Assembly: GCA_016934315.1 (NCBI GenBank)
Contig: JAFGSY010000004.1
Location: 1-49,541, forward strand
DNA: 49,541 nucleotides
From: Candidatus Anaeroferrophillus wilburensis
Lineage (GTDB): Bacteria > Desulfobacterota > Anaeroferrophillalia > Anaeroferrophillales > Anaeroferrophillaceae
Reading direction: 5' to 3'
Made by a program: the position numbers and the translations under genes. Below the pieces are notes generated by a model, which had not been told where the DNA came from, did no database searches, and worked only from the letters and a program-made list of their open reading frames with translations. Of this stretch, positions 301-4,551 are shown one piece after another. Position 1 is the stretch's first letter. The number at the start of each line of letters is the position of its first letter.

Positions 301-1842
301 CTAAACGACATCATTTTTTCCTGCTATGTTATTTTGAATAATGCTTCTTACCGCAATACGTCCGGAACTGAGAGCAAAACTGCTTGCAGAACCTTCCGCA
401 AGAAGGTCATATGTACTGTCATAAAGACCGCCTATATCTTGGCCGGTTACATACAAACCCGGAATAATGTTATCCTTGTTGTCAAGAGCTTGCATATTCG
501 TGTTTATCTTGACTCCACCCAGAGTCAGGAAAAAAGCACGTAGGCCTTTCAGGGCGAAGTAAGGACCATTCAGAGTATCAAATCTGACTAGGTGATCTGG
601 TTTTCGGCTGAAATCCGGATCATTTTTCTGGTCAGCATAGCGATTGACCTTTTCAATTGTTTCACGCAATTTCGTTGGTTCTATGTGTATTTTATTTGCT
701 AAAGCTTCAATTGTATCGGCCTTGAAGGCAAAGCCTGATTCAATACCCTTCTGAATACCTATATCAAGTGCTGTCATTTTTTGTCCCGGAACAACAATGT
801 CGTTAAATGGTGTAAGAGGGCCATTCTCGACCATATATTGTTTCATGTGGCCGTCAAAAATAGACCACATCAAACCACCGTTTGAAGTCATTGCATTGTA
901 GACATCGCTAAAAACCGAACCGAAGGACTCATTGTAGAAACGATCACCATGTCTGTTCACCCATAGAAATGGCTGGCTCAACGCACAACGCATTTGCTTC
1001 ATATGGTCCGGTCCTCTGAATTGTCGAATTGCCGGCTCATTGTCAAGATAAGGGCTATTTCCTGCAAGAGTTCCCATGCCGGCAAGCGCGGCATTGACGC
1101 TTAACGCCAGATTAATTCCGTCACCTTCCCTACCATCAATAGCTGGCCCACGATACATGAGTTTTGCCATTCCCGGAGTACTGACATCCGGTACATATTT
1201 CTTCAACATCTCCTTGTTGCTGACAAAACCGCCAGTTGCCATGATGACAGCCTTCGCAGTAACGGTTAGCGTCTTACCCGAAACGTTCTCAGCTACTATT
1301 CCGATAACGGCTCCATCATCATTGATCAGTAATTTTTTTACTGGCGTATTGGTTAATATCAGTCCACCCTTCTTTTTTATGTTCTCAGACATTATCTTCA
1401 CAACTCGAGATCCTGAGCCCTTAAAAATGTGCCACACATTCAGGCTTTTTTCAGGCGGAAACATTGTTCTAATTCCCTTAATTTCGACCCCATAATCCGT
1501 TAACCAGTCGATTGTTTTGCCAGACTCGTTGAGAAGCGTGCGAATGACCGATGCATTGCAGCGCCAATGGTGAAATTCCATTACTTTGGCAAAAACCTCA
1601 GCAGTCGTTGTCTGAATCTCATTTTTTTTCTGGTACCGAGTGCCGATTCCAAGAGAACCTTCCGGGAAAATGCCGGCACCGCCGAGAAAAGGCAATTTTT
1701 CAAGAACAATTGCCTTTACGCCACTTTCAGCTGCAGTTAGTGCTGCCGAAAGCCCGCTTAGCCCGCCACCTGCGATAACAATATCAGTATCATACTTCAG
1801 ATCTTCTGTGGACGATACCGGAGACTTCTTTATGGATATCAT
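301..1842 (-). CDS. FAD-dependent oxidoreductase of the fumarate reductase/ketosteroid dehydrogenase flavoprotein superfamily
   Basis: This 513-residue protein has an N-terminal Rossmann FAD-binding motif (GGGLSG at residues 25-30, with the adenine-ribose acidic residue E48), a GGAG stretch near 54-57 and a C-terminal second FAD motif (LGGVKINT, then GLYVTGQDIGG and a final GSASSFALSSGRIA). That layout is typical of soluble FAD_binding_2 enzymes such as fumarate, urocanate or 3-oxosteroid oxidoreductases. No Tat or Sec signal and no haem motif are present, so a cytoplasmic enzyme using another electron donor is likely. It is the coding part of integron cassette 3 and is large for a cassette. 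Its start lies 23 bases after the attC core GTTGGCC. The substrate cannot be told from the sequence. Confidence 0.85.
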   Translation of the reverse strand: MISIKKSPVSSTEDLKYDTDIVIAGGGLSGLSAALTAAESGVKAIVLEKLPFLGGAGIFPEGSLGIGTRYQKKNEIQTTTAEVFAKVMEFHHWRCNASVIRTLLNESGKTIDWLTDYGVEIKGIRTMFPPEKSLNVWHIFKGSGSRVVKIMSENIKKKGGLILTNTPVKKLLINDDGAVIGIVAENVSGKTLTVTAKAVIMATGGFVSNKEMLKKYVPDVSTPGMAKLMYRGPAIDGREGDGINLALSVNAALAGMGTLAGNSPYLDNEPAIRQFRGPDHMKQMRCALSQPFLWVNRHGDRFYNESFGSVFSDVYNAMTSNGGLMWSIFDGHMKQYMVENGPLTPFNDIVVPGQKMTALDIGIQKGIESGFAFKADTIEALANKIHIEPTKLRETIEKVNRYADQKNDPDFSRKPDHLVRFDTLNGPYFALKGLRAFFLTLGGVKINTNMQALDNKDNIIPGLYVTGQDIGGLYDSTYDLLAEGSASSFALSSGRIAVRSIIQNNIAGKNDVV

Positions 1843-1864: not shown

Positions 1865-1926
1865 GGCCAACGGCCGGTTTCAGCGGGCGCATGGTCCTCG
1901 CGATCCGCTGAAAACCGAGGTTAGAA
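1865..1926 (-). other. integron attC recombination site (end of cassette 2)
   Basis: On the minus strand the order is R'' TTCTAAC (1926-1920), L'' arm (1917-1905), an 18-base loop, L' arm (1886-1875), R' GTTGGCC (1871-1865). The L arms CGGTTTCAGCGG and CCGCTGAAAACCG pair perfectly except for one extra A in the L'' arm, the extrahelical base that sets strand choice in attC sites. R'' begins 7 bases after the stop codon of the PIN gene. R'' is exactly complementary to GTTAGAA, the 5' core of this same cassette at 2984-2978, as cassette excision chemistry requires. Confidence 0.85.
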
Positions 1927-2983
1927 ACCATTTTATTTAAAAGGAGTTTTCAATTTATATTTAATCGTTTTTCTACCAATAGTAATATTTGAAACGCCCA
2001 ATATGTGGTGGCCGAAGCCTGGTATTTCATTCCCGTCAGTATCGTATGTTTTATGAGATCTTAACGAAAGATTCTCTATATCCTGAGATCCAATGTTCCA
2101 CATACACGATCCTTCGACTTTTCGAATGGCAGGTATGCCGGTCTTTTCGTTTAAGGGAATCACATTTGACAGGTCATATATAATACTAAAATCAACCGCT
2201 ATCAAACTCGGGTTCTCTGTAAGATATAGCGCAACTTTTTTACCAGACATTCCTTCAAAAAAGGCACCCTTTTTCTCTATTTCTTCGATCACTTTAGGAT
2301 AAATATATTCACTTATTTTAGAGGTAATAATTTCTCTATTTATTGGAGGTAGACTTTGGCTTATTTCATCTAAAAATGTTTTCGTTTGATAATAAACATA
2401 TACCTTGTTTTTCAGACTATCTAATTCAGATATTAGTTCCTGAGCAATTCCTCTATTTGGACTTGTCTCCTTAAAAAATCCCTTGTCTTCAGTAATGAAA
2501 TGAACGTCGCTTTTTTCAGAAAGGAATAGGATAGATTCCCATATAAGAGAATCCTTATATTGTTGATTTTTCATTCCATTTGGAGGCGTTCCATTGATCA
2601 CTCGAACTAAGGCGTTTTTATACATGGAGAGAGTAGTCGGTATAGAAAAGCAATTAAGACCTAATTCAGATAACCTCTCTGAGAAGCGGTTTTTAAAAGA
2701 AGTTTCATCAGGAACTTTATAATCGTCACGCTTGCCCATAAGGGTTTCAATAATTTTATAGTTATCGTCGATTTTTTCTACTGCTTCTAGCCCATGTTTG
2801 ACAACGTGTTTTTGTACTTCACCATTAACGACCTCAGGGATTGCTATCACATAGCTATTTCGCTTTATAGCTGAAGCTAAAGCTGCGCCAAGAGGGGATG
2901 CCATGAGCTTAGTGCTATAAACCCAAACATTAGTGTCTAATATGATGATATCGTCCATTAAAATATATCTTTCAGCTTTCTAA
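1871..2983 (-). mobile_element. integron gene cassette 2 (PIN-domain protein)
   Basis: The boundaries are set by the G|TT cleavage points of the cores at 2984-2978 and 1871-1865, giving a 1113-base cassette with one gene, a 25-base leader and a 62-base attC. The DNA is visibly AT-richer than the housekeeping genes to the right, consistent with separate origin. Orientation agrees with the neighbouring cassettes. Confidence 0.8.
1933..2958 (-). CDS. PIN-domain protein, predicted metal-dependent ribonuclease
   Basis: The 341-residue protein starts with the PIN signature LDTN (D8, T9, N10). Further acidic residues sit where the PIN active site needs them: E42 or E47, D136 in KDSLIWES, and D158 in ITEDKGF. 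The domain covers about residues 3-165. It resembles the long PIN-like DUF4935 group rather than short VapC toxins. The C-terminal half (about 170-341) shows no domain I recognise. It is the only gene in its cassette and no antitoxin-sized frame lies beside it. RNA cleavage is inferred from the family; the target is unknown. Confidence 0.75.
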   Translation of the reverse strand: MDDIIILDTNVWVYSTKLMASPLGAALASAIKRNSYVIAIPEVVNGEVQKHVVKHGLEAVEKIDDNYKIIETLMGKRDDYKVPDETSFKNRFSERLSELGLNCFSIPTTLSMYKNALVRVINGTPPNGMKNQQYKDSLIWESILFLSEKSDVHFITEDKGFFKETSPNRGIAQELISELDSLKNKVYVYYQTKTFLDEISQSLPPINREIITSKISEYIYPKVIEEIEKKGAFFEGMSGKKVALYLTENPSLIAVDFSIIYDLSNVIPLNEKTGIPAIRKVEGSCMWNIGSQDIENLSLRSHKTYDTDGNEIPGFGHHILGVSNITIGRKTIKYKLKTPFK

Positions 2984-3076
2984 CGCATGAATTCAGCGGC
3001 GTTTTAGGCGACGCCTGTTTTTGCGGAAGCAAAAATAGGTGGCGGGTCAAACGTCCGCTGCAATGAATTGTTATGT
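2978..3076 (-). other. integron attC recombination site (end of cassette 1)
   Basis: Read on the minus strand, R'' ACATAAC (3076-3070) overlaps the stop codon of the upstream gene and R' GTTAGAA (2984-2978) opens the next cassette. Inner arms CAGCGG (2994-2999) and CCGCTG (3055-3060) pair, followed inward by CGTTT and AAACG with one extra T at 3054 on the R'' side as the extrahelical base. The apex is a 7-bp hairpin TTTTTGC/GCAAAAA with a GGAA loop. Total length is 99 bases, in the normal attC range. The extended R'' GCAACATAACAA is exactly complementary over 12 bases to the cassette's own 5' end near 3800. Confidence 0.92.
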
Positions 3077-3803
3077 TGCGCTGGAAAGAACATTGATCTT
3101 CTCAATTTTGACCTCTTCCCACAGCCTAAAATAGGCTGGGATAAGACTGTCATGACACCTAACTAGATAGTCCATGACATTCACTTCAGGTGCTGTTTTC
3201 TGAGTCCTGCAAAAACCACCCTGACTATCGAGAGAGACACCTTCATAGGTTATTTCTTCAAACTCGAGGCGTCTCCAATTATTCTTCACACGCAGCAGGG
3301 TTCTATGCTTCATGGCATTCGTATAGCCCCGCAGCAGCTGAAATTCTTCATTTACACAAAAACTTTTAAGCGCTCCACCAAAGGAAAAACCGCGATACTT
3401 CGCCATGAACTTCTTGTTCCACGTCACATCAGAACTTTCAGGATCAGTAACTGGAAAGAATAAATTGAGTACGTAAGGAAAGGAATCTAGTAATGCATGC
3501 AGGTTTTGAATAAATGCGAAGATATTTGCTTCATAGACAAAGCGGACAGCCACAGTGTCGCCTGATCTCCGATATACCCCTAATCGGTCTAAAACGAGAT
3601 TCTTTTCCGATACTATCTCTTCTAGAACGGAATAGTGATACTCACAAAACTGCGCCCGATGATAAATCGACTGAGTACTCAACTCTAGGCGCTTGAGCAC
3701 GTCATTTTCTTCGCCGCCTATTTCCTGCCGCTTCAGAGCGACAACTTCAGCAATATCCAATTTGGATTCAGGCATTTATCGTTATCCTTGCTTAGCAACA
3801 TAA
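2984..3803 (-). mobile_element. integron gene cassette 1
   Basis: The 5' core GTTATGT reads on the minus strand at 3804-3798, and the 3' boundary is the GTTAGAA core at 2984-2978, so the cassette is 820 bases. On the plus strand GCAACATAACAA at 3795-3806 and TTGTTATGTTGC at 3068-3079 form a 12-base inverted pair bracketing the gene. This is expected because a cassette's first bases come from its own R' box in the circular form. Confidence 0.85.
3071..3775 (-). CDS. cassette-encoded protein of unknown function, possibly HEPN-like
   Basis: The product is 234 residues, mainly alpha-helical in appearance, without signal peptide or membrane segment. A helix around residues 81-107 is followed by RGYTNAMKH (R149 to H157), loosely reminiscent of the Arg/Asn/His cluster of HEPN ribonucleases, although R and H are seven residues apart where canonical HEPN has four to six. 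I do not recognise the family with confidence. The start ATG at 3775 lies about 30 bases after the cassette core and the stop overlaps the attC R'' box. A nuclease role is only a guess. Confidence 0.55.
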   Translation of the reverse strand: MPESKLDIAEVVALKRQEIGGEENDVLKRLELSTQSIYHRAQFCEYHYSVLEEIVSEKNLVLDRLGVYRRSGDTVAVRFVYEANIFAFIQNLHALLDSFPYVLNLFFPVTDPESSDVTWNKKFMAKYRGFSFGGALKSFCVNEEFQLLRGYTNAMKHRTLLRVKNNWRRLEFEEITYEGVSLDSQGGFCRTQKTAPEVNVMDYLVRCHDSLIPAYFRLWEEVKIEKINVLSSAT

Positions 3804-3952
3804 CAAGTTATTCTATGGTTTCCTGATATCTACTCAAACCAGCTAATCTTGACAAAGAAATATCGGTTGTGTCTCTTGTTTTATAACCGGATATCATTCA
3901 TTAATGAGCGATATACGTTGAAAGATATCTACTGCCAAACTATACTTTCCGG
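3804..3952. other. junction between cassette array and chromosome; candidate attI or Pc region
   Basis: This is where an attI site and cassette promoter would be expected for the minus-strand array. The sequence is AT-rich. The word GATATCTAC (GTAGATATC on the minus strand) occurs twice, near 3826 and 3924, and TGGTTT/AAACCA make a short inverted pair just outside the core. No integrase gene and no full attC fold are visible on this side. No clear promoter could be fixed. Confidence 0.3.
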
Positions 3953-4061
3953 TCAATCAGCAACTTGAACTATATCGTAAAACCTTTTATCTTGCCACGT
4001 CGTGGCTATCTCTATCTGTTCCTGCATCAATAAATCAACCACGCGCAAACCAGACGGCATT

Positions 4062-4551
4062 CTACAGGTGTTTGCCTCCTGCCGGCGAAGTGTGTCGGTT
4101 AATTCCTGCCGGGCATACGGCCATGCACTGCCAGCAGTTATATTGAAAACCGATAAACCCGGCTTGGTACAGTTCGAGAAAAACGGGCTCCTTGAGCAGG
4201 TTTTTCTGCTCTTCAGGCGATGCACTGATAAATGAGTGCAGATACGAAAGGGTTGCGCCAATGCCATACGGTTGGGAATTTTTCAGGCAACGCAGTTCGT
4301 GAAGCCATGGAGATGCGTTTATTAGGGCTTTCGACGGCGCCGTCATTTTCCCGATATCCGGTAACCACCAGGGACTGCACATCGGGCATGATGTTCTGCG
4401 GCGCCGGGGAGAGCGGCGAGTTGTAATCGGCAATAGCGGCAAATCCCACCACATCCGCACCGACATCCATGGCGTATTGGCGAATAAGTTCCTTACTCAT
4501 ACGGCATCTCATGGCATCCATAGTATTCTGGTAGTTGGCCTTGGTTCTCAT
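4062..4551 (-). pseudogene. remnant of a 4Fe-4S protein (epoxyqueuosine-reductase-like)
   Basis: The first frame from ATG 4551 encodes MSKELIRQYAMDVGADVVGF followed by a stretch ending VVTGYRENDGAVESPNKRI, typical of the N-terminus of QueG-like double-cluster proteins. Around 4320-4340 that frame degenerates. Another minus frame continues with FLELYQAGFIGFQYNCWQCM and the ferredoxin-like Cys motif CWQCMAVCPAG before a stop at 4062. The two parts together are far shorter than an intact family member (over 200 residues), so there is at least one frameshift and probably a deletion. It begins 26 bases after the stop of the TPR-synthetase gene. Confidence 0.6.

Follow-up and report, generated by a model that had tools for sequence, protein, structure and literature searches.

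An integrase-less integron that retains its attI site in a Desulfobacterota draft genome, and the family to which this site belongs

The left end of the contig studied here very probably carries the beginning of a small integron, a natural device for the capture of genes, from which the integrase gene has been lost while the attI site and the cassettes were kept. The window, i.e., the whole stretch of DNA that was analysed, is the complete contig C4 of 49,541 bp from a 52-contig draft genome of 2.70 Mb, the relatives of which fall among the sulfate reducers (Desulfobacterota-type genome). A preliminary description of this DNA had read the interval 1865-3806 as an integron cassette array, and this reading is supported by an attC model test, by same-strand cassettes with single genes and by the complementarity of each cassette start to the R'' box of its own attC. 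The sites lie where that interval places them, with the qualification that the array starts with the attI at about position 3804, which is the right end of the interval, and runs from right to left. What goes beyond the preliminary description is a recognisable attI at the array start, beside ordinary chromosomal genes and with the integrase missing there. The features are as follows:

301..1842, minus strand: third gene, encoding a 513-aa FAD-binding reductase (PF00890 FAD_binding_2, 146 bits)
1865..1926, minus strand: attC of cassette 2, 62 bp, the top model score in the genome
1871..2983, minus strand: cassette 2, its edges being the R' crossovers of both attC sites
1933..2958, minus strand: cassette 2 gene, encoding a 341-aa PIN_12 domain protein (PF16289 PIN_12, 64.1 bits, cut-off 32)
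2978..3076, minus strand: attC of cassette 1, 99 bp, second-ranking in the genome
2984..3803, minus strand: cassette 1, reaching from the attI crossover to the R' crossover of attC 2978-3076
3071..3775, minus strand: cassette 1 gene, an open reading frame for a family-less protein of 234 aa
3802..3822, minus strand: attI core GAAACCATAGAATAACTTG^TT, with the crossover falling between positions 3804 (G) and 3803 (T), an exact match to the phylum motif
3802..3914, minus strand: attI leader of about 113 bp (85% identity over 113 bp with G021:C35:12051-12163)
3827..3855, minus strand: weak Pc-like promoter (TTGTCA, 17 bp, TAGATA), read directly, of putative function
3953..4551, minus strand: broken chromosomal gene at the integrase-missing junction, with overlapping frames and no intact ORF

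With the interval read on both strands, the array direction is that of the minus strand, on which attI, cassette 1 and cassette 2 are followed by the flavoprotein gene (gene 3775-3071, attC-like site 3076-2978, gene 2958-1933, attC-like site 1926-1865, gene 1842-301). Cassettes 1 and 2 hold a single gene each, in the same orientation. For the protein of cassette 1, searches of Pfam, NCBIfam and PADLOC gave zero matches, and its gene has no relative in the plasmid collection. The closest NCBIfam models to the third gene are vinyl phenol reductase and flavocytochrome c, both below cut-off; as a cassette this gene is unproven, its own attC not having been found. The contig stops about 300 bp beyond it, and the array can be followed only up to there. 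An Rfam search of the window gave zero matches.

Cassette 1 opens with GTTATGT (3804-3798). When the bases before it were searched against the host genome, one other copy was found (C13:131153-131183), which stands directly before a cassette-like start, GTTGGGC. Outside the window, the leader shows weaker homology to C13:131083-131183 of the same genome and shares shorter pieces with G037, while the identity to G021 spans the 113 bp and then stops; all leader matches in relatives end within one base of 3802. Neither the leader in the plasmid collection nor the core in the viral contigs has a copy. Weak leader repeats in contigs C48 and C25 of the host lie in unrelated places and were dismissed as chance. 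The TTGTCA-17-TAGNTA layout of the Pc-like promoter recurs in C13 and G021; a consensus promoter scan of the window ranks a different weak pair, TTGAGT-16-TAGAAT at 3837-3810, above it and gives only 9 of 12 matches. The end of C13 (L011 8164-8817) carries an attI of the same family and an integrase remnant with an in-frame stop, then a short gene pair, the second member of which is weakly ParE-like (16 bits, below cut-off), and then the contig end.

A pattern scan of 395 Desulfobacterota genomes with GAAACYATRNAATAACTTGTT, one mismatch being allowed, found the 21-bp core at 48 places in 31 genomes (about 8%) from 19 genera, with up to five copies per genome; the reversed pattern, the control on which the specificity of the core rests, gave one. 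The aligned cores are conserved through GATATNCAGAAACTATAGAATAACTTG^TT, and the information drops from 2.0 bits at the last T of GTT to 0.28 at the next base. Conservation that ends at the G^TT crossover is the footprint that one would expect if an attI is followed by a first cassette that varies from site to site. Run on all core loci up to E = 3, the attC model returned 38 matches, every one of them sharing the strand of its core and 33 lying downstream of it.

Altogether 49 core sites were examined, each along with up to 5 kb or more of flanking DNA. Three of them stand beside a full-length or near-full-length integrase, seven beside N-terminal remnants and 39 beside nothing, although five of these 39, at most 1.3 kb away from a contig end, cannot be judged. 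The integrase is divergent and lies 127-203 bp from the core in G059 (480 aa), G303 and G381; the G381 gene contains a single in-frame TGA. By NCBIfam, the G059 protein, which has an N-terminal extension, is an integron integrase (392 bits, cut-off 265), and it heads five attC sites. In a tree of 99 sequences, a quick tree with SH-aLRT support only, the three core-linked integrases form one clade with 100% SH-aLRT on a long stem, apart from the IntI of contig C27 in the host genome. The seven remnant-bearing cores include that of the host's own C13, where the integrase frame holds a stop.

Contig C4 has no integron integrase, and between 3914 and 4551 there is no integrase reading frame. In the host genome, a single integron integrase exceeds the cut-off, namely that of C27 (414 aa, 419 bits). 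Being placed outside the core-linked clade, it belongs to another integron lineage. The core is also absent from the IntI-linked loci retrieved with this integrase, so that the clade of the host's own enzyme is not the partner of the core. The C27 gene (L009 245-1489) encodes an N-terminal extension of about 108 residues, and the contig breaks 244 bp upstream of it, ending in GTTAG.

Since the genome thus has another intact integron integrase, and since this attI copy has neither an integrase nor a remnant beside it, one could imagine that the cassettes were put at a chance site (attG) by an integrase from elsewhere, e.g., that of C27, and that no platform ever stood here. Insertion at attG has been described for IntI1, according to work cited in PMC12901181. 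However, the homology of about 113 bp reaches beyond the core and connects the site to others with integrase remnants, including G021:C35, and the core, shared by 48 places in the phylum, ends at the crossover, which makes a chance site improbable.

Still less probable, in our view, is that the array is a part of the C27 integron that became separated from its integrase when the assembly broke at repeated attC sites. Contigs C4, C8, C13 and C27 do all terminate in integron material, and integrons are often broken up in draft assemblies (PMC9024848), but the attI end is located inside C4, among ordinary chromosomal genes, and the break is consequently at the far end. In addition, the clade of the C27 integrase is a different one, and the DNA upstream of this integrase lacks the core and aligns only weakly with the C4 leader.

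The attC sites were assessed with a home-made covariance model, the E-values of which are rough. It was built from 44 sites of integrase-linked arrays in other genomes and zero from the host, which were aligned with the R''/L''/L'/R' pairing and one extrahelical base imposed. Across the whole 2.70-Mb genome, four matches came up at E <= 10, namely 1865-1926 with 29.0 bits, 2978-3076 with 28.0 bits and a pair on C8 with 26.8 and 24.2 bits. The two attC-like folds of the preliminary description were hence correctly positioned and hold the top two scores in the genome, and neither lies below threshold with this roughly calibrated model. A filter-free scan of the window only returned just the 62-nt site; the 99-nt site came up in the default scans. 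Folding of both sites as single-stranded DNA, bottom strand included, gave z values against shuffles of -2.6 and -3.0 for 1865-1926 and of -4.5 (bottom strand) and -2.8 for 2978-3076. The former site (minus strand) has R'' TTCTAAC, the arms GGTTTTCAGCGG and CCGCTGAAACC and R' GTTGGCC, and the latter (minus strand) has R'' ACATAAC, the arms ATTCATTGCAGCGG and CCGCTGAATTCAT and R' GTTAGAA.

The start of cassette 1, GTTATGTTGC, is exactly complementary to the R'' of its own attC, GCAACATAAC, over 10 bases from the crossover G, and that of cassette 2, GTTAGAAA, to its own R'', TTTCTAAC, over 8 bases. The exact pairing that had been pointed out earlier therefore holds in both cassettes, whereas the 12 bases claimed for cassette 1 consist of these 10 plus two on the attI side. 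Chance palindromes without any integron are hardly credible, even if the genome-scale E-values of the two sites are modest (0.008 and 0.014), given that the two best-scoring sites share a strand and lie 1 kb from each other, that 5' core and R'' match exactly over 10 and 8 bases, and that a conserved attI is in the right place. Left of 301, an R''/R' candidate for a third attC was seen by eye but discarded, having a fold z of 0.0 and no model match, and the further site to be expected there is unsupported. On C8 (C8:50000-58067, L180), cassettes lie at another contig end around the two model matches named above; by eye, there is a further attC-like hairpin, and the genes resemble those of a cation transporter and a hemerythrin.

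To the right of the attI, the broken gene is followed by intact RelA/TPR and CTP-transferase genes. The relative of the broken gene in G013:C5 matches in two adjoining blocks (query 50-263 and 264-461), which are separated there by about 365 additional bases in its middle. An orthologous empty or complete site was sought in relatives and none was found; G018 has the neighbouring RelA/TPR gene, and the DNA beyond it is different. A misjoin of the draft may lie at 3914-4100.

For the preferred reading, a small integron that lost its integrase gene, the following course of events can be envisaged from the sequence comparisons. An integrase of the one clade would formerly have stood to the right of the attI, some 110-200 bp away and pointing rightwards, and would have placed circular cassettes into the attI at its G^TT (3804/3803). 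In this way, cassettes 1 and 2 would have entered by recombination of their folded attC with the attI, which would be the reason why the first bases of each match the R'' of its own attC. Later, the integrase gene would have been lost, probably by a deletion near the broken chromosomal neighbour, leaving behind the attI, the Pc-like promoter with its presumed function and the cassettes, which would now be immobile unless an integrase acts on them in trans.

Many Desulfobacterota chromosomes have more than one attI of a single clade, scattered over different places and mostly lacking a neighbouring integrase. With regard to such action in trans, one could speculate that these sites are served together by an integrase located elsewhere in the genome, as a distributed integron with several expression sites, which we regard as a rather doubtful possibility; several cores in one genome could also be relics of several integrons. 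When 32 genomes were searched with the clade-A protein, about 12 of them, including G037, gave only weak, Xer-like or fragmentary matches, which favours relics over service in trans in those genomes. G037 (C1, C5, C9) is 98% complete and has five cores and no integron integrase at the family cut-off; at least one of its cores is followed by an attC (L142, 35 bits).

In kind, the element is ordinary, i.e., an integrase-less (CALIN-type) integron that retains its attI. It shares with CALINs the two same-strand attC sites, the single-gene cassettes and the lack of an integrase nearby (at least two attC define the class together with that lack, and the left side is here bounded by the contig end) and differs from them in its recognisable attI. 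It has been proposed that CALINs are integrons in a degraded state, and draft genomes inflate their number (IntegronFinder 2.0, PMC9024848). Of the features of a complete integron, the attI at the array start is present and an adjoining intI is absent. The complete chromosomal integron of G059:C19 (L181) has the same attI core with same-strand cassettes downstream but, in contrast to the window, also the divergent 480-aa integrase upstream and at least five attC sites.

A further resemblance exists to class 1 and 2 integrons, in which truncated attI copies (Delta-attI) serve as cassette junctions, and the minimal motifs of which, AAACAAAGTT and AATAAAATGTT (PMC12901181), are similar to AATAACTTGTT in the window. 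Within the present family, L207 (G109:C148, 5004-5108) has an attC that abuts a bare 21-bp core within a few bases, the shortest attI remnant seen, and L188 (G137:C36, 6241-6425) has two cores in tandem, 164 bp apart; both are comparable to Delta-attI. The hairpin sequence between the tandem cores is also found right behind the attI in other genomes. The attI of the window differs from Delta-attI in that it forms a leader, about 113 bp long, where the array starts, and in that it is chromosomal and falls outside the clinical classes.

Apart from those of class 1, attI sites have been poorly described and go undetected (PMC9024848). As attI is hardly known outside the clinical classes, integrase-less arrays cannot be told from random cassette insertion. 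The attI family, its linkage to a one-clade integrase and its frequent survival without the integrase appear to be uncharacterised, none of them being described in the openly licensed papers that we searched. As such, the family provides a sequence handle in one phylum, both for the start of an array and for the integrase clade that built it, and it shows that docking site and cassettes often outlast the integrase. Whether orphan docking sites capture cassettes can now be tested directly.

A minor observation concerns the far left of the window, where a 72-bp hairpin-forming element (112-183) is 100% identical to C20:82446-82517 (L010 8447-8518), with no other strong copy in the genome. In C20, the ends of the element are perfectly palindromic and the fold is strong (z -6.5); the window copy differs at its right end.
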